Assembly (NCBI GenBank): GCA_025617375.2
Contig: JAMYGW020000001.1
Coordinates: 372,001 to 436,000 of the forward strand
Source: Acarospora socialis
Lineage: Eukaryota > Ascomycota > Lecanoromycetes > Acarosporales > Acarosporaceae
Direction: 5' to 3'
DNA length: 64,000 bases
This document shows positions 1,029-27,913 of this stretch, piece by piece. Made by a program: the position numbers and the translations under genes. The stretch's first letter is position 1; each line of letters begins with the position of its first letter. The notes beneath the pieces were generated by a model. The model had not been told where the DNA came from, ran no database searches, and worked only from the letters and a program-made list of their open reading frames with translations.

Positions 1029-1461
1029 GGGATTTGATACACGTAGACCCCTACTTACTAGTCATAGACCCCTCATTTACTAATCATAGACCCCCCCAAA
1101 TCGGGAAGTAGTTCCAGGCTTTCATGCCTAAACCCACCCCTAAACCCACCCCTAAACTCACACCTAAACCCATGTCTGGACTCACACCTCCACAACGTGT
1201 GTCTGTCCTCTAAGTTCTACACTTTGTCAAATTCTTTTATCATATTCTCACTGTTCTAACTGTCCTTGCTGTCTTTTTTCAACTCTCTTCACTGATTTGG
1301 AGGTTGAGAAGTCTTGTTGGTTCGAATATTCAGTTTAGGGGTGGGTTTAGGGGTGGGTTTAGGCATCAAAGCCTGGAACTACTTCCCGATTTGGGGGGGT
1401 CTATGATTAGTAAATGAGGGGTCTATGACTAGTAAGTAGGGGTCTACGTGTATCAAATCCC
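1029..1461. mobile_element. 433-bp foldback/MITE-like element with 130-bp terminal inverted repeats
   Basis: Bases 1029-1158 and 1332-1461 are inverted repeats of 130 bp each. By eye they differ at one position (TTCATG versus TTGATG). The ends begin GGGATTTGATACACGTAGAC. Inside each arm the motif TAGACCCC occurs three times at roughly 25-bp spacing (subterminal repeats). The inner part of each arm holds 12-bp CCTAAACCCACC-type repeats. The 173-bp loop has no coding potential. The near-identity of the arms suggests recent insertion or maintenance by gene conversion. The target-site duplication is unclear. Confidence 0.8.
1127..1174. repeat. four 12-bp telomere-like repeats inside the MITE arm
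   Basis: The units are CCTAAACCCACC (1127-1138), the same again (1139-1150), CCTAAACTCACA (1151-1162) and CCTAAACCCATG (1163-1174). The opposite arm carries two matching units in inverted orientation (about 1336-1362). The core CCTAAACCC resembles fungal telomere repeats, but the 12-bp period is not telomeric. Confidence 0.75.
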
Positions 1462-12578: not shown

Positions 12579-12834
12579 ACTCGTCCCTCATCGGAGTAAA
12601 GGAGACGAGATCCTGGTTGTTGAATCCAGGGCAGGGCAAGGTAAGTTGGTACCTTGCATGTAACTGCCCATGCCAGTATGCCTGGTATGCTTTGGTCCAA
12701 GCTTACGGAAAGTTCCGTTGTCACATGTGTCACTCAAACTGTACATGCATTGATACGGGAATTCTAGCCCTCGAAAATCTTCAGAGGTCACCATTCAGTT
12801 GTCTCCTTGACAACATTCCCAAGATACAAAGAAT

Positions 12835-15800
12835 ATGAACTGCTCGTGGCCAGACTCGAAGCTACTGACTTCTCTAGATGAGTCCTCTAATCTACCTGCC
12901 GAGCTACTAGATATCATTGAAAATGGTTCGAACGAAGAATTTCTTAATGCGCTAGCCCTTGCAGCGCTCAATCCGAAATACACGAAGACTATATTCATGT
13001 ACTACGAGCCTATCATTACTGACTTGTGCGGACGATGGATGTCTCACGCGGAAGTGTCGGGTTCATCGTTGGATATAGTCTCAGCTCTTGCGAGGATCTT
13101 ACCATGGGCTCCGCAGCTTGCGGTCTTCGTGGAAGAGCTTGTTCTGAAGCGACGTGCTGGTGTCTTCGAGCGTCTGTCATCCCCGACAGGTATGCAGTTG
13201 CAAGATCTTCCGCATCAAACCCTCCACGATCTCCTTCTTGCGGTATTCCGGTTGCTAGTGTTCGACAATCCAAGTTTTGCACCAGCCATTGCACCTTTGC
13301 AACTGCAGTTCTTGCTACGGCATGAAGATAGGTGTATTAGATATCTAACGGTCAGAATCCTATGTCTATATCTACATGCTGCAGATGCGGCTATGACTAG
13401 AATGGTGGACCAGTACCTTGGAGAAGAGGCTATAGAAGGCGAATATGAAGGGCAAAATATCGACTACGGTTTTTTGAGTCTATGGGAGGAGAAGCGTATG
13501 GAGGAGTCAGAGTCGCAGCTTCGAATGCTTCGACAAGAGCGGCTTGTTACCATGACTCATTCTGTACCGAGACGAGTTATCCATCAAAATGAATTCACGC
13601 CATTCACGGTTGAGGTTGCTGGCGTTCTCATGCCGCGGCTTCATACTTCTCCAACCAAAGCGTCATCTTTAGCCCTGACGAGTACAACATGCACCAACCT
13701 GGCTAGCCTTGCTAAGGCGCTGCTTAAGCCTAATCCCGTCTTGGTAACCGGCGTGGCCGGATCGGGGAAAACAGCATTGATTTTAGATGTTGCGCGGAAG
13801 TTGAACACCGCTACATCTATGGTCACGCTACACCTGAACGAGCAGACAGATGCAAAGTTGCTGATTGGCATGTACACTACAGATTCTAAGCCTGGGTCAT
13901 TTGCATGGCGACCCGGTGTCTTAACACAAGCTGTTAGGGAAGGCCGTTGGGTGTTAATTGAGGACCTTGATCGTGCTCCTACAGAGGTGCTCAGCGTTTT
14001 GTTACCACTAATAGAGCATGGAGAGCTTCTAATTCCGAACCGTGGTGAACGTGTGCATGCCGCACGAGGGTTTAAGCTGATTGCTACCATGCGTACGGTG
14101 CTCAACGCTCAAAGCAAAGAGAGCTTACCGCGGCTCAACATGCTGGGTATTAGACTCTGGAGACAAGTCTCTATACTATTACCCGGAAAAGACGAGCTTA
14201 ATCTTATCATTGGGCAGTCCTTCCCCTTGCTCCATGCGTATCTGTCAACGATTATGAACGTGTACTCTCGGCTTCTAGCCCTATATCAAGAAGCGTCCAC
14301 TGTGACCCGCAACCAAGCTTTACTTGGCAAGACCTTCAATCACCGCGATGTTTTCAAGTGGTGTCAAAGGATTGACCGGTCACTAAAAGCATACGGCCTG
14401 AGAACCGGAGAAGAACCGTTCCCGGAAGACTTGGTGGACAGTATATTTCTGGAGGCTGTTGATTGCTTTGCGAGGGGTCTTCGACCAGGATCTGGACAAG
14501 CTGCCGTCATCGCCTGTGTTGCACAGGAACTGCATGTATCTCCCCAAAGGGTGCAATATTACTTATACGAGCGCATCCCCAAGTACTTCAACGAAAAAAC
14601 GGAATTACGCATAGGGCGTGTCACGCTCCGGAAGAAACAGCTCCCTAAAGCCGCATTGACGCAGAAGAAGCAGACAAGGAAAGACCCATTCGCTCTTACA
14701 AGCCATGCTCTACGACTGCTCGAGCAAGTGGCCGTTGCTGTTGGTGCGACAGAGCCTGTTCTGCTGGTTGGAGAGACGGGGACGGGCAAGACCACTGCTG
14801 TGCAACAGCTTGCTAATGAGCTGGGCAAGAAACTCGTAGTAGTCAATCTCTCTCAGCAAAGTGAGAGTGGTGATCTCCTTGGAGGTTTTAAGCCGGTCAG
14901 CGTCAGGACGCTAGCTCTCCCAATGAAAGACGAGTTTGATGAGTTGTTCGAATCGACCTTTTCAAGAGCCAAGAACAAACAATACATTGACATGCTGGGA
15001 AGACGAGTGGCCAAAGGGCAATGGTCCCGTGTAGTGATCCTCTGGAGGGAAGCTTTACGTATGGTGGAGAACGCTCTTGGGCCCTTGACCGAATCAGTAG
15101 TCAGTTCTGTTCTTCAGCATACAGAACAGGTCAAGAAACGGAGAAAGCTGGATTCTACATTGCGGGAGAGCCTCAAGGCCCGATGGATTACCTTTGCTTC
15201 TAACCTAGAGCAATTGAGTCTACAAATCTCGAGCGGGTCAAGAAGCTTTGTATTCTCTTTTATTGAAGGAAACATTGTCAAAGCTGCAAAGAGTGGGGAT
15301 TGGGTACTCTTAGACGAAATCAACCTTGCCTCACCTCATACTCTCGAGAGCATAGCAGATCTTCTTCAAAGCGGGCCCGAGAATCCTCCGTCTCTTTTAA
15401 TGTCTGAGGCCGGCATTGCAGAGCGTTTTTATGCTCATCCGTCATTTCGAATCTTCGGTGCCATGAATCCGGCAACTGATGTTGGGAAGAAAGACCTACC
15501 ATTGGGGCTGCGATCTCAGTTTACTGAATTATATGTCGAGGCTCCAGACAAAGATCTTGCAAACCTATTGGATGTCGTGAAAGCCTACCTTGGCAGCTTC
15601 AGTGTCACAGACGAACGTGCAGCTAATGACATTTCGCGGTTATACCTCGAAACGAAACGTCTCGCTGAGGACAATCAACTTGTGGATGGAGCTGATCAGA
15701 AGGCCCACTTCAGTCTCCGGACCTTAACCAGAACCTTGAGCTATGTGACTGATATAGCACCAATATATGGTCTGCGGAGAGCACTTTACGAGGGCTTTTC

Positions 15801-18800
15801 AATGAGCTTTTTGACGTTGCTTAGCAAGGAGTCAGAGCGCCTTTTGGTACCTTTGATAGACAAGTATATCTTGGGAACTCATCGCAACGCTCGTTCACTA
15901 CTCCGACAAATGCCACGTCTACCTCGCAATGATAGGGAATATGTGCAGTTCAAGCACTACTGGATAAGTAAGGGCCATCTTCCGACCAAGGAACAACCAC
16001 ACTACATCATTACCCCGTTTGTCGAAAGGAATCTACTGAATCTCGTCCGTGCTACATCGACGAAACGCTTCCCTGTCCTTGTTCAAGGTCCTACATCATC
16101 CGGCAAAACTAGCATGATCGAGTACCTTGCGAACATATCAGGGAACAGGTATGTGAGAATCAACAACCATGAGCATACCGATCTGCAGGAATATATCGGT
16201 ACGTACATATCTGGACAAGATGGGCAGTTACTTTTCCAGGAAGGAATTCTTATCCGAGCGCTCCGTGAAGGCCATTGGATTGTGCTTGACGAACTGAACT
16301 TGGCGCCAACGGATGTGTTGGAAGCCCTGAACCGCTTGCTAGACGATAACAGAGAGTTACTAATACCAGAAACGCAAGAGGTGGTTCGACCTCATCCGAA
16401 CTTCATGCTCTTCGCAACCCAGAACCCTGCCGGCTTGTATGGAGGCCGAAAAGTGCTTTCGCGAGCTTTTCGAAATCGGTTCCTAGAGCTACACTTTGAC
16501 GATATACCTGATGATGAGCTGGAAATTATTCTCCGTGAAAGGACACAAATTGCTCCGTCTTTCTGTGCCCGTATCGTCGCAGTATACAAGAGGCTTTCCC
16601 TACTTCGACAAACGAGCAGACTTTTTGAACAGAGAAACAGTTTTGCTACTCTCCGAGACCTGTTCCGCTGGGCTCAACGAAAAGCGGACACCCGCGAAGA
16701 GCTGGCGGCAAATGGATTTATACTACTAGCTGAGAGGGTCCGGAAACCGGAAGAACGATCTGTCGTTAAGAGTGTCATCGAGGACATCATGAAGGTCACA
16801 CTATATGAAGAGGGCCTCTACGGTCCGCCACATGTCTCCAACTCCGGAAATTCAGCGACCCTACCTGTCTCAAATGGTATTGTGTGGATAAAAGCCATGT
16901 GCCGCCTCTACGCGCTTGTTTCGAAGGCACTCGAGAACAACGAGCCAGTTCTACTTGTTGGTGAGACTGGGTGCGGAAAGACAAGCATATGTCAGGTCAT
17001 GGCAGAATTACTAGGAAAGCAGCTGTACACCGTTAATGCACACCAAAACACAGAGACCGGCGACCTAATTGGCGCACAACGGCCTATCCGTAACAGAGCC
17101 GCCATTGAGATGCAGTTGCGGAACGATCTATGTGCTCTACTTGCAGCTCAGCCCAGCACTGTCGATCCGATCAAAGATGATATCGATGACTTGTTGCAAG
17201 CCTACGAATCTTCATCGACTTTGATGTCTGAAGGACATATTCTAGAGCTCAGACATCGCGTTGACATTAATAGAATGAAGTACAAGGCTCTTTTCGAATG
17301 GTCTGATGGTAACTTAGTGCAAGCCATGAGAACCGGGCAGCTCTTCTTATTGGATGAGATCTCACTAGCCGATGATTCGGTCCTAGAAAGACTGAACAGT
17401 GTTCTAGAACGTGAACGGTCGTTGTTGTTGGCCGAGAAGGGTCCCGAGAAGTCACTCGTGAAAGCGGCCCAAGGCTTTCAGTTCATTGCTACCATGAACC
17501 CTGGAGGGGATTACGGAAAGAGAGAATTGTCACCGGCATTGCGAAATCGATTCACTGAGATCTGGGTGCCCTCTTCGTCGGATCCTCACGATATTTTGCA
17601 GATCGTGAAGGCAAAAATCCCTTCTCCTTTGACGGGCTTTTCGGAGACTATTGTTCAATTTGCCCAATGGTTCGGTGCAGAATACAATCCTTCTGTCTCC
17701 GCCACAATCTCAATCCGAGACATACTGACATGGCTCGAGTTTATCAGTACGTGGCAAGCCAACGACCCGCACCTTGTTCTGCTTCACGGAGCAGCGATGG
17801 TATACATTGATACCCTGGGTGCGAACCCAGCCGCTCTTCTTGCTATATCCCCCGATCGAGTCCAGCGCGAACGTGAGAAGTGTCTCGAAAGGTTGGGTCA
17901 ACTCCTGGACCATAACGTAACTTCGCTGTATACGGAGGTACCACATGTTTTAGTTGATGTACACTCTTTATCAATCGGATCGTTCTCGATTGCGAGAGCT
18001 GAAGCCGCTGTTGATAACTTAAACTTCAATCTCCGAGCACCAACAACGCAGACCAACGCATCAAGAGTCCTTCGCGCAATGCAATTAAAGAAACCAATAC
18101 TGATAGAAGGTGATCCTGGAGTCGGGAAGACGACGCTCGTTGTGTCCCTGGCCCAGCTAGCTGGACGGAGGTTGACACGGATCAATCTTTCTGAGCAGAC
18201 AGATCTAATGGACCTCTTTGGCTCCGATGTTCCAGTTGAAGGTGCAGAAGCTGGGCACTTCGCATGGCGTGAAGCACCTTTCCTGCGCGCCATGCAGAAC
18301 GGTGAATGGGTTTTGCTCGACGAGATGAACCTGGCTTCGCAGTCAGTCCTCGAAGGCCTAAACGCTTGTTTTGATCATCGCGGGGAGATATATATCTCTG
18401 AACTGGACCAGACCTTTACTCGCCACCCAGACTTTCTCGTGTTTGCCGCGCAAAATCCTCACCATCAAGGCGGAGGCAGAAAAGGATTGCCAGCTTCTTT
18501 CGTCAATCGCTTCACTGTAGTCTATGCTGACTTGCTTACGTCCGATGATATGATGCTGATTTGCAGCCACAGCTTCTCTGATATCCCTACTAATACAATC
18601 CAGGAGATGATCCGCTTTGTGACTGCTCTGAGAAGCGAAACCACGTACAACCACAGCTTCGGCAATTCCGGTAGCCCTTGGGAATTCAATCTTAGAGATG
18701 TAATCCGGTGGCTACAGCTCCTTTCGTCGCAAGGATTGCTGGTATCTATTGAATTACCGGTGGATTTCCTCGACTTACTATTTACGCAAAGGTTTCGCAC

Positions 18801-21800
18801 AGTGGAAGACCAAGATCGCCTCAGATCTCTGTTTAAGGCACAGTTCGGGCAGCGGGTCTTAGAGCGAAGTTACTACCATAATCTCAGCTCCAGCTTCCTC
18901 CAGATCGGACATAGCTTTCTAACACGAGATCTCTTAGCACAGCGGACCCCAAGCCCGAACATACCATTTCCAAAGACTCATTTGCCTATTTTGGAGTCTC
19001 TGATGGTCTGTATCCAGCGCAACTGGCCGTGCATCTTAGTCGGTCCTTCCGGCTGCGGCAAAAGCGTTCTTCTCAAACAACTTGCCGCCTATTCCGGAGC
19101 TGAGTTGGTCGAATTTGCTGTCAATTCGGATATTGATACCATGGACCTTGTCGGTGGATATGAACAGGTTGACCCTCAGCAACATATTTCAGCTTTCCTA
19201 AAGCTACTGCAGGACTATATTTCCTCCCAGGCGTTGCAAGCTATCATTGCGGGTCAGATATCTGTTCAAGCATTGTCAATGATGGACTACCTCCAAAGCA
19301 GCAATGCCGGTAATGTAGACTTGGATCGAATCTCTGGCTACCTACGAGACCTGTCGGACTGTCACCCAACTACCATTGCTTCCAAATTGCAGAACCGATG
19401 CGATGAGCTGTTCCGCATGCCGGCCATTGCTGATAAAGCCCGGTTTGAGTGGGTTGACGGTATACTTGTCGAAGCACTCGAGCAGGGCAAATGGCTTGTG
19501 CTGGATAATGCAAATCTATGCAGCGCGTCTGTATTGGACAGGCTCAACTCCTTATTGGAACCTGAAGGGACTTTGCTTATCAATGAACACCCTATGGCGA
19601 ATGGAAGCGCTCGTCTGGTGAAGCCTCATCCTGATTTCCGAATTTTCTTGACGATGGATCCGCGATATGGTGAGCTCTCTCGGGCGATGAGGAACCGCTG
19701 TGTGGAGGTCTTTGTTGGCCCTCGAGAGCAGAGTGCTCTTACCGATACGGCTGGAGCTCTTCAAGCTTTCACATGCGAGTCATCTATAGCTAGGTTGCGA
19801 AACCTACGTGCGTTTGTTTCAGATGTTTCCTCAATCGCTTTGACTAGCCGTCTGACTGATGTCTGTCTTGATCACATGTCTTTGTCAGATATGGAGCTTT
19901 TGCCGCGTTTGAAAGATCATGGTTCTGCTGCTATGTTCGGCAACTCGCAGAGCTCAAGAAACATTATTTCTTCTGCTTGGGATAGATACCTCGAGCTATT
20001 TGCCTCTCAAAATTGGTCAAGTCACATCCTGCGCTTTTATAAGGCAGTCACCCAGGCAGCTGGTTTAGGGGACAACTTTGGAAAGACGCAGGTCAGTAGC
20101 TATAAAGTTCCAACGTTAGAAAAAGTATACTGATAGTTATACCTGTTCCTGTAGCCTATCCATTCCCTCGTAAACCCAGTACCGGTTTTGACGTCTGCTA
20201 AAGCGCTTCGAAATTTCGATGCTTACGGGCTTGCGGTGTTACAGGAGTTAATCTTGGCAATTGCTTGTTTTCTCCAGCAACTAACGTGCAGTCAACAAGA
20301 ATCGGAGTTAAAGAAGCCATCGCAACTGACTCGGCTCGAGAGATCTTTTGCTATAACGCGGGTACAAAGCTACTCGAGAGACTCAACGTCTGGTGTAGCG
20401 TACTTCTTAAAAACACTTGGGCAAGCGCTCTGGGATTGGGTTCAACGAGAGTCACAGCCAACTACTGCCCAACAGGTCTGTTCTCTCACTCATAACTGCC
20501 TGAAGATGGGAGGCTAATAATTGTTAGGATTCTATTCCCGTTCTGTTCGAACTTCTAGCCTATTGGAAGGATTTCTATGACCTTGTCCAGTCACATGCAT
20601 TTGAAGAAAGCGAGTTTCAAACATATCTAATCACAGGAAAAGAATTATCGTCTAGAACTGTCAGTAACGAGGGTGTGGCTTCTCTTCTGCAGAAGTTAGG
20701 TAGTGGTCTTAGTCAGTTCCACGCTTCCTGGAAGTTGTCGACCGGGCTCAGCATGGAAAGACTGTGGGAAGCATGTCGACCACAAACGCCACCAACACTT
20801 TCTCACTTGTCGGTGTATCTGAGGCTTGAAGGGCTTGCGGACCGATTCGATAATGCACTGTGGAGGTCGTGGATACCTGTGGCGCAAATCAGCAGTGTTA
20901 GGGTATCCATCGCTGAAGCCCTTACTGTAATGCGCTCGCAAGACACGCAAAGCGAAGAGATGATCGATGTAAGCCTCTTACTTCGTCACACAATTACATA
21001 TTAATGTAACCTTACTGACGGAACGTTTCAGACTGTTAACAAAGCTATCGTCAAGTTAGAGCTGCGGCACGGGACAGGGAACACCAAAGATACTCCGTAC
21101 TACCAAGACGTATTCGAGGGACTGAGTCAACATTACGATCTCGTGGACTCGTTGGGACATCGCGGAGAAAGCAGTGCACCGCCTAATAACCGTAACCACT
21201 TACTTCATCTGTTAGCAGGTCGACCTACTAAGTTGGAGTCATCTGGCGAGCTGAGTTCGTTAAAGACGAGCTTTTTTTCCGGTCTTCAGGACTATTCCGG
21301 TAACGGCCGGGGCACTGACTGGATGGCGCTGCGAGGCATCACGTTGACTTCTACCTTATGGAAGACGTAAGTTCCTTGATCGATATATCATTCATAAGAT
21401 GCAACGAACCTAATTGGTTGCAGTCATCGAGCGGAAAATGTCAAACTCAGACTGCTTGAGCCTCTTCAAACCGAGGTCGAATTGCTTGGATCTAGCATAG
21501 CATTGAGTACCACAACGCTGGCGCTTGACCAGCTGAAGTTGCTCAATAGACGGCTGTGCAGGTTACTACTGATGCTCTTCAAAGCTCATCGCTTATATCT
21601 CGCAGAGGACTTTCAGGAGGAGTTGATTCGCACACTCGATTTCATTCAGCAACCCACGGACAGCTCGAGCATCCCATCTTCTTACTTCGAGCAGCTCAGA
21701 CCGGTTCAAGTTTTCAAGTCAGATCTTCCAGAGGAACATTACTTCCGCAGCATAACCGCAGAGTTCTTGCTGCCTTCACTCTGCAATCTCCTCACAGCCG

Positions 21801-24800
21801 TTAGCCATGAGCAGGCCTTATATTCGGAATCCGCCTCCGCATGGTTGTACTTCGCCATGGGTTCTATACTTTTGTACATTCCTGACCGTCCCTTTGACCC
21901 TGCCATAAAGCCGATAGTGGAGATGCATCGTCATACTAAACGGAAGTCAGAGCTTCAATGCAAGCTACAAGCTCTGAGAGGCTTCGAAGAGTCGTTCACC
22001 GGTCAGAGTACGAATTTACGAATCGGGCTCATGGAGCAGCGTCTTCTGGCGCTTGGAGAGGCGCCTCCAGTACCTGCTATAGCTCGACCACCCGTATCAA
22101 AATTGACGCAGCTTCAAGGAGAGTTTAACAATCTATTGAATTCGGTCTTCAAAAGCTGCAAATCAGCCGATCAACTATCACGCTTTGTTCAAGGAGGTCA
22201 TGAGGTATGTGCAGAAATAAAGATGTTGAAATCGAATTTGAGTCAGGTCATGAGCCGCCTTGAGAATGGTTTCAGGGTATATGACGACCTTACAGCTCCC
22301 GCTGTTGGGCTACTAAAGTGTTTTGATGTCGGGTTATCATTAGCTACGCTAACATCGTCAGTACTGGATGACGATACAAACAAAAAAATCATGTCCATCG
22401 CAGACCGTACACCTTTCCTGGGCGGAGCACCGAACAGCTTCCTGCGTTTCAACATGGATGAGCTTACCAGGCGTCCCGACGGGGGCCTAACTTACTTGGA
22501 TTATCTGACCGTTGCGCAAGGCGTTGATCGTAGCATACTGTCTAAGCACGACCGGCGGCAACAGCTCTTTTCGGTGCTACATAGCCTCTACCAAGGTTGG
22601 AAGGATCAGCTTGGGGCCGATAGAGAGCAAGAGGCCGCTCGGACTGGGCTTTATAGGTACAGAGGAGCTGAAGATATAGTGATGCAGGAGGAGGAGGAAG
22701 ATTTCGATGAGATGTTTCCAACCTACGAAGAAGAAGGGGAGGAAAGGAAGTCAGAACGGACAAAGTCAGAAATGACTCCGCGAAAGCTGGCTAGCTTAGT
22801 TGCCCAAAAGCATGCGGCTATCTTTGGTAGCATTGAGTGTAGCTCCATCCCACTCCAAGCGCTTCTTGCAGAATCCGGAGCAACTATCAGCAGAATAATG
22901 AGCAGCTTGGAAGACAAGAGAGCACCCATCTCAGCCGAGAGGCTCTTGGCAGCTGTGGTGATCTCCCTAGATCAGACTGAGGCCAGTTTGCGAGAAAGCA
23001 CGAGTACAGGACGAAACTATAACTTCTATGAGGATATGAATCTTGTGGAGGCGAAGAAGTTACTGTCATTGGTGCAAGCCATCAACTATCGGTTCCGTCA
23101 ACTCATCGAAGCCTGGCCAGAGCATGCCACTTTGCACGAGGTGGTTCGGGTTTGTGGCGAGCTTCTTGATTTTCCGTACGGAGAACCTATCGCAAAGTTC
23201 CTGACGAAGGCCGAAAAGCTACATGGCTTCATCCACGAATGGCAGCTTGTTGCAAGCAGGGAATTCTCTGCAGCTGAGGTCTACGATGGCCTCACCAAAC
23301 TATTGATTGAGTGGAGGCGCTTAGAACTCTCTACATGGGCTCGACTCTTCGATCTGGAAGATGAGAAGTACAAGGAAGACGCCAGGTCTTGGTGGTTTAT
23401 AGCCTACGAAGTGATCGTCGCGGTCCCAGTTTCTTTGGCCGAGTCGCACGACCTCAGGAAGCACGCCGAGAGTCTCCTGGACCTGCTCGAGAAGTTTTTC
23501 TCCACCACAACGATAGGCCAATACTCCCAGCGACTTCAGATTCTGGAAAGTTTCCGGGAGCTGGCGGGCTTAATCGCGAAAGACATCCCTTCTATGACAC
23601 CCGTCCACATGAGTCTGTGCAACTTCTACAACTTCTTCAAGCGATTCGAGAGGCCTATATTGGATTTCCTTCGTGAAGGCCGTCAACAACTCGAGAAAGA
23701 TATGAAGGAGGTCCTTTTGTTTGCTAGTTGGAAAGACACGAACATCAACGCTCTCAGAGACAGTGCAAAGCGGTCACATCACAAACTCTTCAAGCTCGTC
23801 AGAAAGTACCGAGCATTACTTGGACAGCCTGCGCAGAATACAATCAAGCAAGGCTTGCCTAGCGAAGATCGAGAAGATGTAACCGTTCCAATGGAAAGTC
23901 AAAACTTCCGGGTTGCCGTCATAGACTCGAAGGCCCTGGCGATCTGTGCAAGTCGTCTTGAAGACTGGAGCATGAAGCCGTTACGGTTGAGAAACAGCAC
24001 AGCTACGGTTGAGAACATGGTGCGGTTGGCCCGCGTCTTAGATTCGCCGGTAGATGCCTCTTCGCAACTGAAGTCACTCGTTTCTGACTTGACGGAGTCA
24101 ATGAGCACTCTTCGAAGGCAAACTCCATCGAAGTTGACCGAAGATAACAAACAGATCGTCAATCATCTTAAATCTCGCAAGCGGAAGCTGTTCGCCGATA
24201 CGCTCAAGGAGGTTCGCCAGATGGGCTTTCGATCGAACCACTCCACAGACGTCTTGGCACGGCAGACTTCTCTTTCTGCTGTGCTCTCCACTATCCCAGC
24301 GCTGCAGAACCTTGACCAGAATGGAGATATCAAGAGCGCAAACTACTACTTACATACTTTCCTTGACCTAATGCCCGCTGTGCGGTCGGCAATCAAAGAC
24401 CATTCAAATGAGATTGTTACTGCTGAGGTTACTCGAAGTATTGGCTACATTGAGGGTCTTCTCTCCCGTTTGATGAAGCAGAGGGAAACCTTAGCGGGTT
24501 TTGTTCCCAAGACAGTCGCACTGGATCGAACAGTCGTGAGCTTACAGAACCTTTGGCGGCCGCAGGAGTACAATGTACACGGCAACGAGAAAGAGGTTAC
24601 AGGACAGATACAGGGTCTCCATAAGACCATTGTATGGTTACCCAGCGTCATGGAACTTGGAAGCAATATCATCCAGGCACAGAGTCGGCTTGCTAAGGTC
24701 AACGCAATGGATGTGGTTAATGCTCTATCTGTCTACAAAAGCCTTTTCGAGTCTTACATTGTCGAATGGGACACTTTACCCGTCATGCCCGATGGACTAT

Positions 24801-27800
24801 CCACATCTGATCACACAGGCTGGCGTGACAAGGTTGCTTTGTCAGTAAAGCAATTGAAGGAGATCTTAGAAATGTGGACTCAAAAGCATCCTCTAATGGC
24901 GTTTGTCTTCGAACAAATACGCCTTTGGACAGATCTTGGTCAGCCTCTGGCAAATGGTCACCTGAACGGAAATCATGCCGTCACAATGCCTTCCCTGGAA
25001 GATTCTCTCTCCAAGACTCTAGATACGGTTTTAGTTGCATTACAACACATGCAGGCTTCTGCAAATGGCATGCCACCATCCACCGAAGACGCGGCTTGGT
25101 TGACCAAATCTGACTTGTGTCTTGCGGCGACCTTCAAAGTGCTGAACCCTGACACTATCATCTCAAAGCTTGAAGAATCCATGTCGCAACTGCAAAACCT
25201 AGACTCATCAGAACTGCTAGTCGGGACCGCGCTCTTCAGAATGATTACGCCTATGGTTCAGCAGTATAGGAATATCGTCTCTAATGTCTTCCAACGTTAT
25301 GCTATGCTCCATCAATCAACCTGTTATCTTGCTTATGTTTTAGCAAAATCCTTCGTTCAGATTTCTTCGCAGGGTTTCTGTACACCTGCTGAAGACGCCG
25401 GGGCGCAAGATAGTAGAACGGAGAAGCTGGAAGATGGAACAGGCCTTGGCGCGGGTGAAGGTGCTGAAGACATAAGCAAGGATGTACAAGACGACGAAGA
25501 CTTGTCGGAGCTGGCTCAGCACGCTGATGCAAACAAAGATAGAGAAGAGTTAGAGGATGAGAAGGATGCAGTGGATATGAAACAAGACGATATGGAAGGG
25601 CAGATGGGGGATGTTTTTGAGAAAAGGGAAGACGATGAGGGAGAAGCTGACGACAAAGACAGCTCAGACGAGATGGATGAAGAAGCAGGCGGAGTCGACG
25701 ATCTTGATGCCTCTGCAGTGGACGAGAAACTCTGGGATGATGACGGAGAAGAAGCGAAGAGAGACAAGGAGGGGCATCAATCCAACAGCAAACGGCAAGA
25801 GAAGGATTTGACTTCTGCGGAGGAAGCAAAGCAAGATACTGCTCTAGAAGCAGAAGAGCGAGAGGGAGATGAGAATGAGAATGAAGGTTCCGAGGAAGGC
25901 GAACAGGTTAGTCGAGAGGAGCTAAAGAGAACCGACCCTCATCTCCAGAGGGAAGAAAAGCTGGACCTCCCAGACGAAATGGACCTGGATCATGATAAGG
26001 GATCCGAGGCCATGACAGACTCGGATGATGAGCGTATGAATGAGCTGTCGGACGTCGAAAAATCCGACGCGGGAAAAAAGCAGCCTGACATCGATAGCGA
26101 GGATGAAGCAAAAACATCAGACGAGCATGACCCTGGGCTAGATAAGATGTCAGACATTGAGGACCTCAATGAACCACCGGCTGATCTTGATGACAACCCT
26201 GCGGATATAGAATCTCCGCTTGATACCGAAGGCGAGGAAGATGGCATTGACGAACATGAGGGTGTCATGTCAAGCCATGCGGACGAGGCGGCTGTTGATA
26301 AGGATAACATTGTTCCTAGCGACGTGCAAGGACTAGGCAACGAGAATGGTCAAGAGGCCGGAGACGAGGAAGAAAAGTCTCACGTGGCACAACAAGACCA
26401 AGGATTAAAAGGCGACACTAGTACCACGGAACAGCCGGAAGCTGCAGCGAATGAAGGTCAAGCCTCTGGGAACGACCAGGAATCCGGACTCGGTCGCGCA
26501 AACCCCGAAGAAGTGCAAGAAAACCAGGAGTTAAGCGGCTTCAAAAAGCTTGGCGACGCCCTAGAACGCTGGCATCGTCAGCAGCGTCAAATTCGTGAGG
26601 CTGCCAAAATCGAGGAACGGCAGGAAGCTAAGCCTCAAGAGGTGGATGCGACGGACGCGGATTTCGAGCATCTACCTAGCGAAGGGGCTCGTGCCGATGC
26701 GCAGGCGTTGGGGGCTTCTACGGAAGACCAAGCGCAAGCGTTAGATGAAAGTAGAGCTGTCGAGTCGGAAGACACACAGCTCCCTAGCGAGTTTCCGCCC
26801 CAGACAAACAAGGATGAGCCGCAAGATGTTGAGATGAGCAATTTCGAGATGCAAGCGCCGCGGGACTGTCGTCAGGTTGAGCAGCCAAGCAATGCTCCTA
26901 TGGAAGGCAAAAAGAGTCAGTCAGATGACCGTAAACATGAAGATGATGGAAACGGAATGCAAGATGACCAGGATCTGGAAGACGTTCATGAGCACCTCTC
27001 TACTGTCCACCTTGGACCTTGTAGCTTGAACGTTGCGCGCTCGCCAGAACAAGCTCGTCAACTCTGGTTCCACTACGAAAACCAGACCAGGGAGCTCTCC
27101 CTATCCCTTACTGAACAGCTACGTCTTATACTTGCACCAACCTTGGCGACTAAGATGCGTGGTGATTTCCGCACTGGGAAACGCCTTAATATCAAACGAA
27201 TCATACCCTACATCGCATCCCAATACAAGCGCGATAAGATTTGGATGCGGAGATCCATCCCTTCGAAACGCAACTACCAGATCATGGTGGCGGTCGACGA
27301 TAGTAAATCAATGGGCGAAAGCGGAAGTGGCCAACTAGCCTTCGAGACCCTCGCCCTGATCAGCAAGAGTCTCAGCATGCTCGAGGTTGGCGAAATATGC
27401 ATTGTGGGATTTGGGGACGACGTCCGAGTCGCTCACGAGTTCGACAAACCCTTCTCATCTGAAACCGGCGTACACGTGTTCCAGCAATTCGGCTTCCAGC
27501 AAACAAAGACCGACGTCCGCAAGCTCGTCGCCGAGTCCATCGACTTATTCCACGATGCTCGCAACAAAACATTCGGCGCGAGTGCGGACCTCTGGCAGCT
27601 CGAGCTCATTATCAGTGATGGGGTCTGCGAGGATCACGATACTATCCGTAGGCTCGTCAGACAAGCTCAAGAGGAGCGCATTATGATAGTCTTCGTTATT
27701 GTGGATGCGCTGCGAGGAAGTTCGATTATGGATATGAGTCAGGCTACATTCGAACCCGATGAAGAAGGGCAAATGAAGTTGAAGATGAGGAGGTATCTTG

Positions 27801-27913
27801 ATGACTTCCCATTTGGGTATTACCTCGTTGTGGGAGACGTAAGGGAACTACCAGGGGTACTGGCCACCGCGCTTAGACAGTGGTTTGCGGAGGTTGTGGA
27901 TGCTGCTGGCTGA
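12835..27913 (+). CDS. MDN1: midasin, dynein-like AAA+ ATPase of 60S ribosome assembly
   Basis: Five exons (12835-20091, 20155-20475, 20528-20968, 21032-21366, 21424-27913) stay in frame and give 4947 residues, close to yeast Rea1. Six Walker A loops are visible in order, near residues 307, 646, 1084, 1376, 1759 and 2069: GVAGSGKT, GETGTGKT, GPTSSGKT, GETGCGKT, GDPGVGKT and GPSGCGKS. They form the six-AAA ring. A long helical linker follows, then an Asp/Glu-rich region of about 500 residues (about 25400-27000), and a C-terminal MIDAS domain with VDDSKSMGESG near residue 4740. Family knowledge: midasin pulls Ytm1 and Rsa4 off pre-60S particles through its MIDAS domain in the nucleolus and nucleoplasm. 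The two giant exons are 7.3 and 6.5 kb. Confidence 0.97.

Follow-up and report, generated by a model that had tools for sequence, protein, structure and literature searches.

Tm1, a Mutator/Foldback element of root-knot nematodes, is described as having composite TIRs with variable short tandem units (1 to 9 units, commonly of 14 bp), whose numbers are unequal between the ends of one element; the same description gives MITE-like members, 9-bp target duplications, and a Mutator-superfamily transposase in larger members (PMC3169594). Galileo, a P-superfamily element of Drosophila with 7-bp duplications, has long TIRs with internal tandem repeats, and the account of it includes exchange between subfamilies, chimeric copies with nonmatching target flanks, and TIR lengthening by copying of one TIR across (PMC3573991). 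Tetris and DAIBAM of Drosophila virilis are foldback elements with tandem repeats in their TIRs and 8- to 10-bp duplications, for which the authors suggested Mutator (PMC4079207). Target duplications of MULEs are given as 8 to 11 bp, and one subgroup of the Hop-group MULEs of Ascomycota has TIRs of 85 to 99 bp (PMC6446971).

We analyzed a window of 64,000 nucleotides (C1:372001-436000) in the 31.1-Mb genome (38 contigs) of Acarospora socialis, which contains a new foldback-type MITE, most likely a Mutator member. Like Tm1 as described (PMC3169594), this element has composite TIRs with variable short tandem units; unlike Tm1, it has a fungal host, a 12-bp unit of another sequence inside a conserved core, and duplications of 8 to 9 bp, and some of its relatives have termini of a second type, flanked by TA. 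The long, internally repetitive TIRs are also a point of likeness to Galileo, from which the element differs in duplication length and probably in superfamily; moreover, the extension described for Galileo recruits inner sequence, whereas one copy of the Acarospora family has outer host DNA mirrored (PMC3573991). Tetris and DAIBAM resemble the element in their foldback layout and in the tandem repeats of their TIRs; they are reported to share the final portions of these TIRs, whereas the Acarospora groups share inner arms and differ in their outer ends (PMC4079207). The likeness to the Hop-group MULEs lies in the ascomycete host and in the TIR length of a 4.07-kb relative (95 nt), which, however, is a decayed copy (PMC6446971).

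Architecture of the 433-bp element

Inverted-repeat detection gave two foldback arms of 130 nt each that were 99% complementary (1/130 mismatch) and separated by 173 nt (Table 1), in agreement with the one-base difference originally predicted. The prediction of three subterminal motifs per arm was correct in number but not in spacing, which is slightly shorter than the claimed 25 bp or so. All six copies of the motif (TAGACCCC) in the 64-kb window lie within the arms, and none of 100 shuffles reached this number; we regard these repeats as candidate transposase sites. The inner 12-mers were likewise as numerous as predicted when up to two mismatches to CCTAAACYCAYR were allowed (i.e., four on the left and two on the right), and exact matches to CCTAAACCCACC occurred twice in each arm. 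Their description as telomere-like did not hold, and a telomere origin was ruled out: among the contig ends listed (C1 to the start of C3), the arrays at or near the ends consist of CCCTAA, the telomere repeat of this genome, and not of CCTAAACCCACC. The layout had also been judged unlike a standard MITE, which is true of ordinary MITEs, but it matches that of foldback-type elements such as Tm1.

Table 1. Features of the element, in window positions
Feature	Position	Strand	Basis
Whole nonautonomous element, 433 bp, GGGATTTGATACACG...CGTGTATCAAATCCC	1029..1461	.	Family matches; ends compared with 18 other two-ended copies
Left foldback arm	1029..1158	+	Inverted-repeat detection
Right foldback arm, 1 mismatch with left arm	1332..1461	-	Inverted-repeat detection
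Three subterminal TAGACCCC repeats, left arm	1044..1094 (1044, 1065, 1087; spacing, 21 to 22 bp)	+	Common to 4.07-kb element
Three subterminal TAGACCCC repeats, right arm	1396..1446	-	Motif matches
Conserved arm core, AATCGGGAAGTAGTTCCAGGCTTTCATG	1099..1126	+	Sequence and alignments
Minisatellite of left arm and loop, four units of 12 bp (2 mismatches to CCTAAACYCAYR allowed)	1127..1174	+	
Two 12-bp units, right arm	1340..1363	-	
Loop segment homologous to 3' subterminal part of 4.07-kb element (L083 3865-4007)	1175..1314	-	Score, 77

Other features were observed in the window. A second, unrelated MITE lies at 577 to 880, with arms TACGGAGGCACAGCCCACTGGTTA.../...TAACTAGTGGGCCGTGCCTCCGTA and TA on both sides; it gave 19 matches in 16 places, four of them full-length at 90 to 100%. 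A short hairpin (GCTCGGGTCA...TGACCCGAGC) was seen by eye just outside the 433-bp element (1474 to 1517). Very long frames (2,440 and 2,171 aa) occupy 12811 to 27913, which we take to resemble midasin (MDN1/Rea1). Judged by eye, genes seem to contain interruptions; this and the CCCTAA arrays suggest a filamentous fungus.

Dispersal, target duplications, and an empty site

The 433-bp query matched 27 places in the genome by DNA search. The arms sort the copies into an A type (with TAGACCCC; window included) and a B type (with TAGACCAC); the window query and a B-type query together gave 39 places, and 49 were obtained when seven chosen terminus matches and seven TA-flanked elements (see below) were included. 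Many of these 49 are single arms or fragments. In the subset of places that was read, we delimited 19 two-ended copies whose termini are GG...CC (ends, GGSNNGTGATWCMSGTAGACC), leaving out one-ended or truncated places (i.e., L006, L008, L030, L031, L035, L037, L042, L043, and others). A search with the terminus pattern returned 112 matches, compared with 69 for the reversed control; because matches with two mismatches are mostly due to chance, they were counted as copies only inside copies found otherwise.

Perfect target duplications of 8 to 9 bp flanked 9 of the 19 copies (TATAAGAA, TTTGCAAAA, TATATATA, TATGAAAA, TAATTTTA, GCTATTAT, CTGGCAAA, TTGTGAAAT, and CATATCAA), and two more copies had a duplication with one mismatch. 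With 16 offsets allowed, the chance per random site is 0.00015 for a perfect 8-mer and 0.0055 for one mismatch. TATATATA is not independent since it comes from a copy with mirrored flanks (at C8; see below), and TATGAAAA and GCTATTAT were found only with an offset of one or two bases. Without the mirrored copy, eight independent perfect duplications remain (six of 8 bp and two of 9 bp). No convincing duplication was found for the other eight copies, including that in the window, whose best flank match was 6 of 8. One copy (C1:3674k) sits inside an older arm of its own family. When its two flanks are joined with one CTGGCAAA between them, the product aligns through the junction with an intact arm (55 columns with one gap of 1 base; score, 71; best of 100 shuffles, 41), which reveals a related empty site. 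For the other 18 copies, the same joining yielded no clear empty site, the next best score being 52 (4.07-kb copy).

The family is dispersed, and its copies share their ends; target duplications, a related empty site in one case, and, as described in the next section, loop homology to a larger copy were also found. Many copies with conserved ends and short duplications are what the original prediction expected of a mobile family; a single-copy sequence, which would have spoken against it, is ruled out by the same observations. They also refute, for the family, a static inverted duplication or an assembly artefact. The window copy by itself might suggest such an origin, as it has no recognizable target duplication, but it lies on a 4.08-Mb contig with telomere repeats a few kilobases from both ends, and we give this reading hardly any credence.

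The predicted RNA fold of the element (-288.1 kcal/mol; z = -29.6; stability matched by none of 100 shuffles) bore out the claim of a very stable hairpin, although such stability is expected of any repeat of this kind. Downstream lies a gene for a ZIP zinc transporter (PF02535; E, 1.1e-33), whose likely start codon, assigned by eye, is at 1821, with the element ending about 360 bp before it. This fold and position would suit a hairpin-RNA locus whose function is to supply small-RNA silencing and whose transposon origin is incidental. We consider such a locus very improbable, as a comparable fold would come with any 130-bp inverted repeat and several copies have arms with large deletions.

A larger relative and the transposon superfamily

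Two perfect matches to the terminus pattern, 4.07 kb from each other, delimit a 4,072-bp relative (C2:1776575-1780646; L083 176-4247). This element has the same kind of ends, TIRs of 95 nt (94% identity), and a perfect CATATCAA target duplication. It has in common with the MITEs the outer arm, made up of terminus plus the three repeats (66 of 84 bases identical between the window and the 4.07-kb element); the arm alignments showed neither the GGCTTTCATGCC core nor 12-mers in it. The window loop is colinear with L083 3865-4007 on the opposite strand, its score being reached in 0 of 200 shuffles (mean, 36.2; maximum, 60), and three other A-type loops also match the 4.07-kb element (0 of 200 shuffles each). 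Six B- and T-type loops (the latter from the TA-flanked elements) had no significant match to this copy in 200-shuffle tests. The A loops are related to the B loops (z, 4 to 8 in the three pairs listed). Given the loop homology, a relative of the 4.07-kb element was the source of the A-type MITEs.

The 4.07-kb element has a decayed frame, in two stretches full of stops that are split by an LTR element. This inserted element (L083 1236-3005; C2:1777635-1779404) is 1,770 bp long, with 238-bp LTRs (235/238 identical) and a CAAAT duplication. The left frame stretch matched PF10551 (MULE) at 12 bits, where the cut-off is 27.6; E was 0.3 across Pfam as a whole and about 1e-5 for this single model. 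The implausible family Nup35_RRM_2 scored better on the same stretch (E, 0.095). The right stretch had no transposase match and only the implausible Carbam_trans_C (E, 0.22). At E ≤ 1, PF10551 was the sole transposase family among the Pfam matches of both pieces, and no hAT family was among them. A copy with a transposase had been expected to name the superfamily; the larger copy with its decayed frame hints at a MULE, but the PF10551 match falls below the cut-off. With sequence evidence for a MULE this weak, the case depends mostly on the long TIRs and on the 8- to 9-bp duplications.

Further searches concerned possible partners and the decay. MULE was the first family sought in the genome, before the 4.07-kb copy was known. 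The search with PF10551 did not list the place of the 4.07-kb copy; it gave three matches, two of them above the cut-off. These three loci were rejected as partners, having no significant nucleotide match and weak protein matches (best E, 0.004, to L052). In a DNA search for other copies of the 4.07-kb coding part, 39 of 40 matches fell in the LTR part and the remaining one was the query; in a protein search, all 35 other matches ended in LTR-derived residues. RIP is not put forward as the cause of the decay, since the ratios of TA/AT (0.56 and 0.77) and of CA+TG over AC+GT (1.85 and 1.34) were not RIP-like in the usual CpA sense.

The element is a nonautonomous foldback MITE that we consider likely to derive from a Mutator-like (MULE) DNA transposon. 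The parent transposon would have lost its transposase gene and kept its outer ends together with part of its 3' region, now the loop, and the inner arm would have acquired its core plus a 12-bp repeat able to expand. Movement, by cut and paste, would be due to a MULE transposase that binds the terminal and TAGACCCC repeats, insertion would leave an 8- to 9-bp target duplication, and arm-templated repair would keep the two arms alike; the binding, the MULE as the actual mover, and the arm conversion are steps that we infer.

The same kind of foldback MITE could instead have been moved by a transposase of the hAT, P, or Merlin superfamily, all with 8-bp duplications, and the frame in the 4.07-kb copy would then have been misread as MULE-like. 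The duplications of 8 bp and the subthreshold, outscored PF10551 match would allow this. Such a mover is unlikely in view of the two independent 9-bp duplications and of PF10551 as the sole transposase family on the frame pieces; in addition, hAT ends are of the CAGG type, from which the GG... ends of the family differ. Fungal hATs with 8-bp duplications are on record, but the TIRs of those described are 18 to 20 bp long, compared with 95 nt in the 4.07-kb element (PMC6710886).

Arm exchange, mirrored flanks, and a second terminus type

Across 18 copies, each side held between 0 and 11 of the 12-bp units, a variability also described for Tm1, and the left and right numbers were unequal in 16 copies. 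Small inverted repeats of the GGTCGGTAAGTGTTTATCC... and GGTCGTAAATGAATGC... types were seen by eye nested in family arms (approximately L048 1479-1578, L008 1781-1812, L003 1900-1968, and L091 161-390). The two arms of a copy were closest to each other in 8 of the 19 copies, with one tie, and were not closest in 10. This mixture fits occasional arm-to-arm conversion and suggests, short of demonstrating, that arms are converted in concert. The window element had been proposed to be young or kept identical by conversion. Its arms are indeed more similar to each other (identity, 0.99) than to the nearest other arm (0.94), but no target duplication is recognizable. This combination makes youth the less favored reading and leans toward conversion, or else toward recombination between copies.

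In one copy (C8:1388743-1389378; L047 1744-2379), the inverted identity extends 83 bp past both termini (93% identity; arms, 91%), and a DNA search found the mirrored 83 bp in no other place in the genome. A partial family arm lies directly outside the left mirrored flank, and the history of this copy is therefore complex. Arm-templated repair that overran the element would fit the mirrored flanks; for Galileo, the same repair process has been proposed in the inward direction (PMC3573991).

Six elements carry the inner arm and the 12-mers behind TAACGTYTTCTAGGATTAAGCGAAAATGATG-like ends that are unrelated to the GG termini (T-a, L039, L089, and L091; T-b, L036, L038, and L088). L090 is a seventh element with T termini, in which the core is absent; it is 191 bp long (L090 44-234; C6:1884123-1884313), with an interior of other sequence that is almost entirely palindromic. 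The seven account for 14 of 23 matches to the T-terminus pattern (reversed control, 0), the other nine lying outside the set read. All seven start and end at TA, with unrelated flanks beyond, and TA also occurs within the TIR. A TA duplication would point to Tc1/mariner; in L091, the longest of the T elements read, no frame exceeds 76 aa.

We compared 12-mer-free segments of the T arms with GG-type arms (1,000 shuffles each). For T-b, no shuffle was as good in any of the six tests against two B arms, and 10, 0, and 0 shuffles were as good against the window arm. For T-a, the counts were 0 against both B arms and 1 against the window arm. When the T segments were set against the 4.07-kb element, between 0 and 268 shuffles scored as well. 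The first 45 nt of the L088 terminus did not match the GG termini (659 to 988 of 1,000 shuffles as good), and no T-type loop reached z 3 against other loops, so the common part is the inner arms only. T-a and T-b termini join the arm at different depths, which implies at least two terminus switches if the termini were captured.

Both this arm sharing and the mirrored flanks fit arm-to-arm copying. We tentatively propose, as a possibility that we rate below even, that foldback arms serve as a copying device by which a transposon can change its ends: a terminus captured on one side would be copied across by arm-templated repair, so that Mutator-type inner arms would pass under a different, TA-flanked, mariner-like transposase, and the same copying would mirror host DNA outward, as at C8. 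Alternatively, the T-type relatives may have arisen from one MITE nested in another with subsequent loss of the inner ends, or the arms may be of T-type origin. We found no report of one foldback interior behind termini of two superfamily types in the open-access literature.

For the window, the outcome is modest: one MITE copy close to the gene for a zinc transporter. What makes the family a noteworthy variant is its T-type relatives. Foldback elements are known from several superfamilies, their long repetitive arms having arisen repeatedly. The same inner arms with two unrelated terminus types, together with mirrored host DNA, provide a concrete case for arm-templated repair as the cause of such arms; such copying could switch the transposase that mobilizes an element and create new inverted repeats in host DNA.
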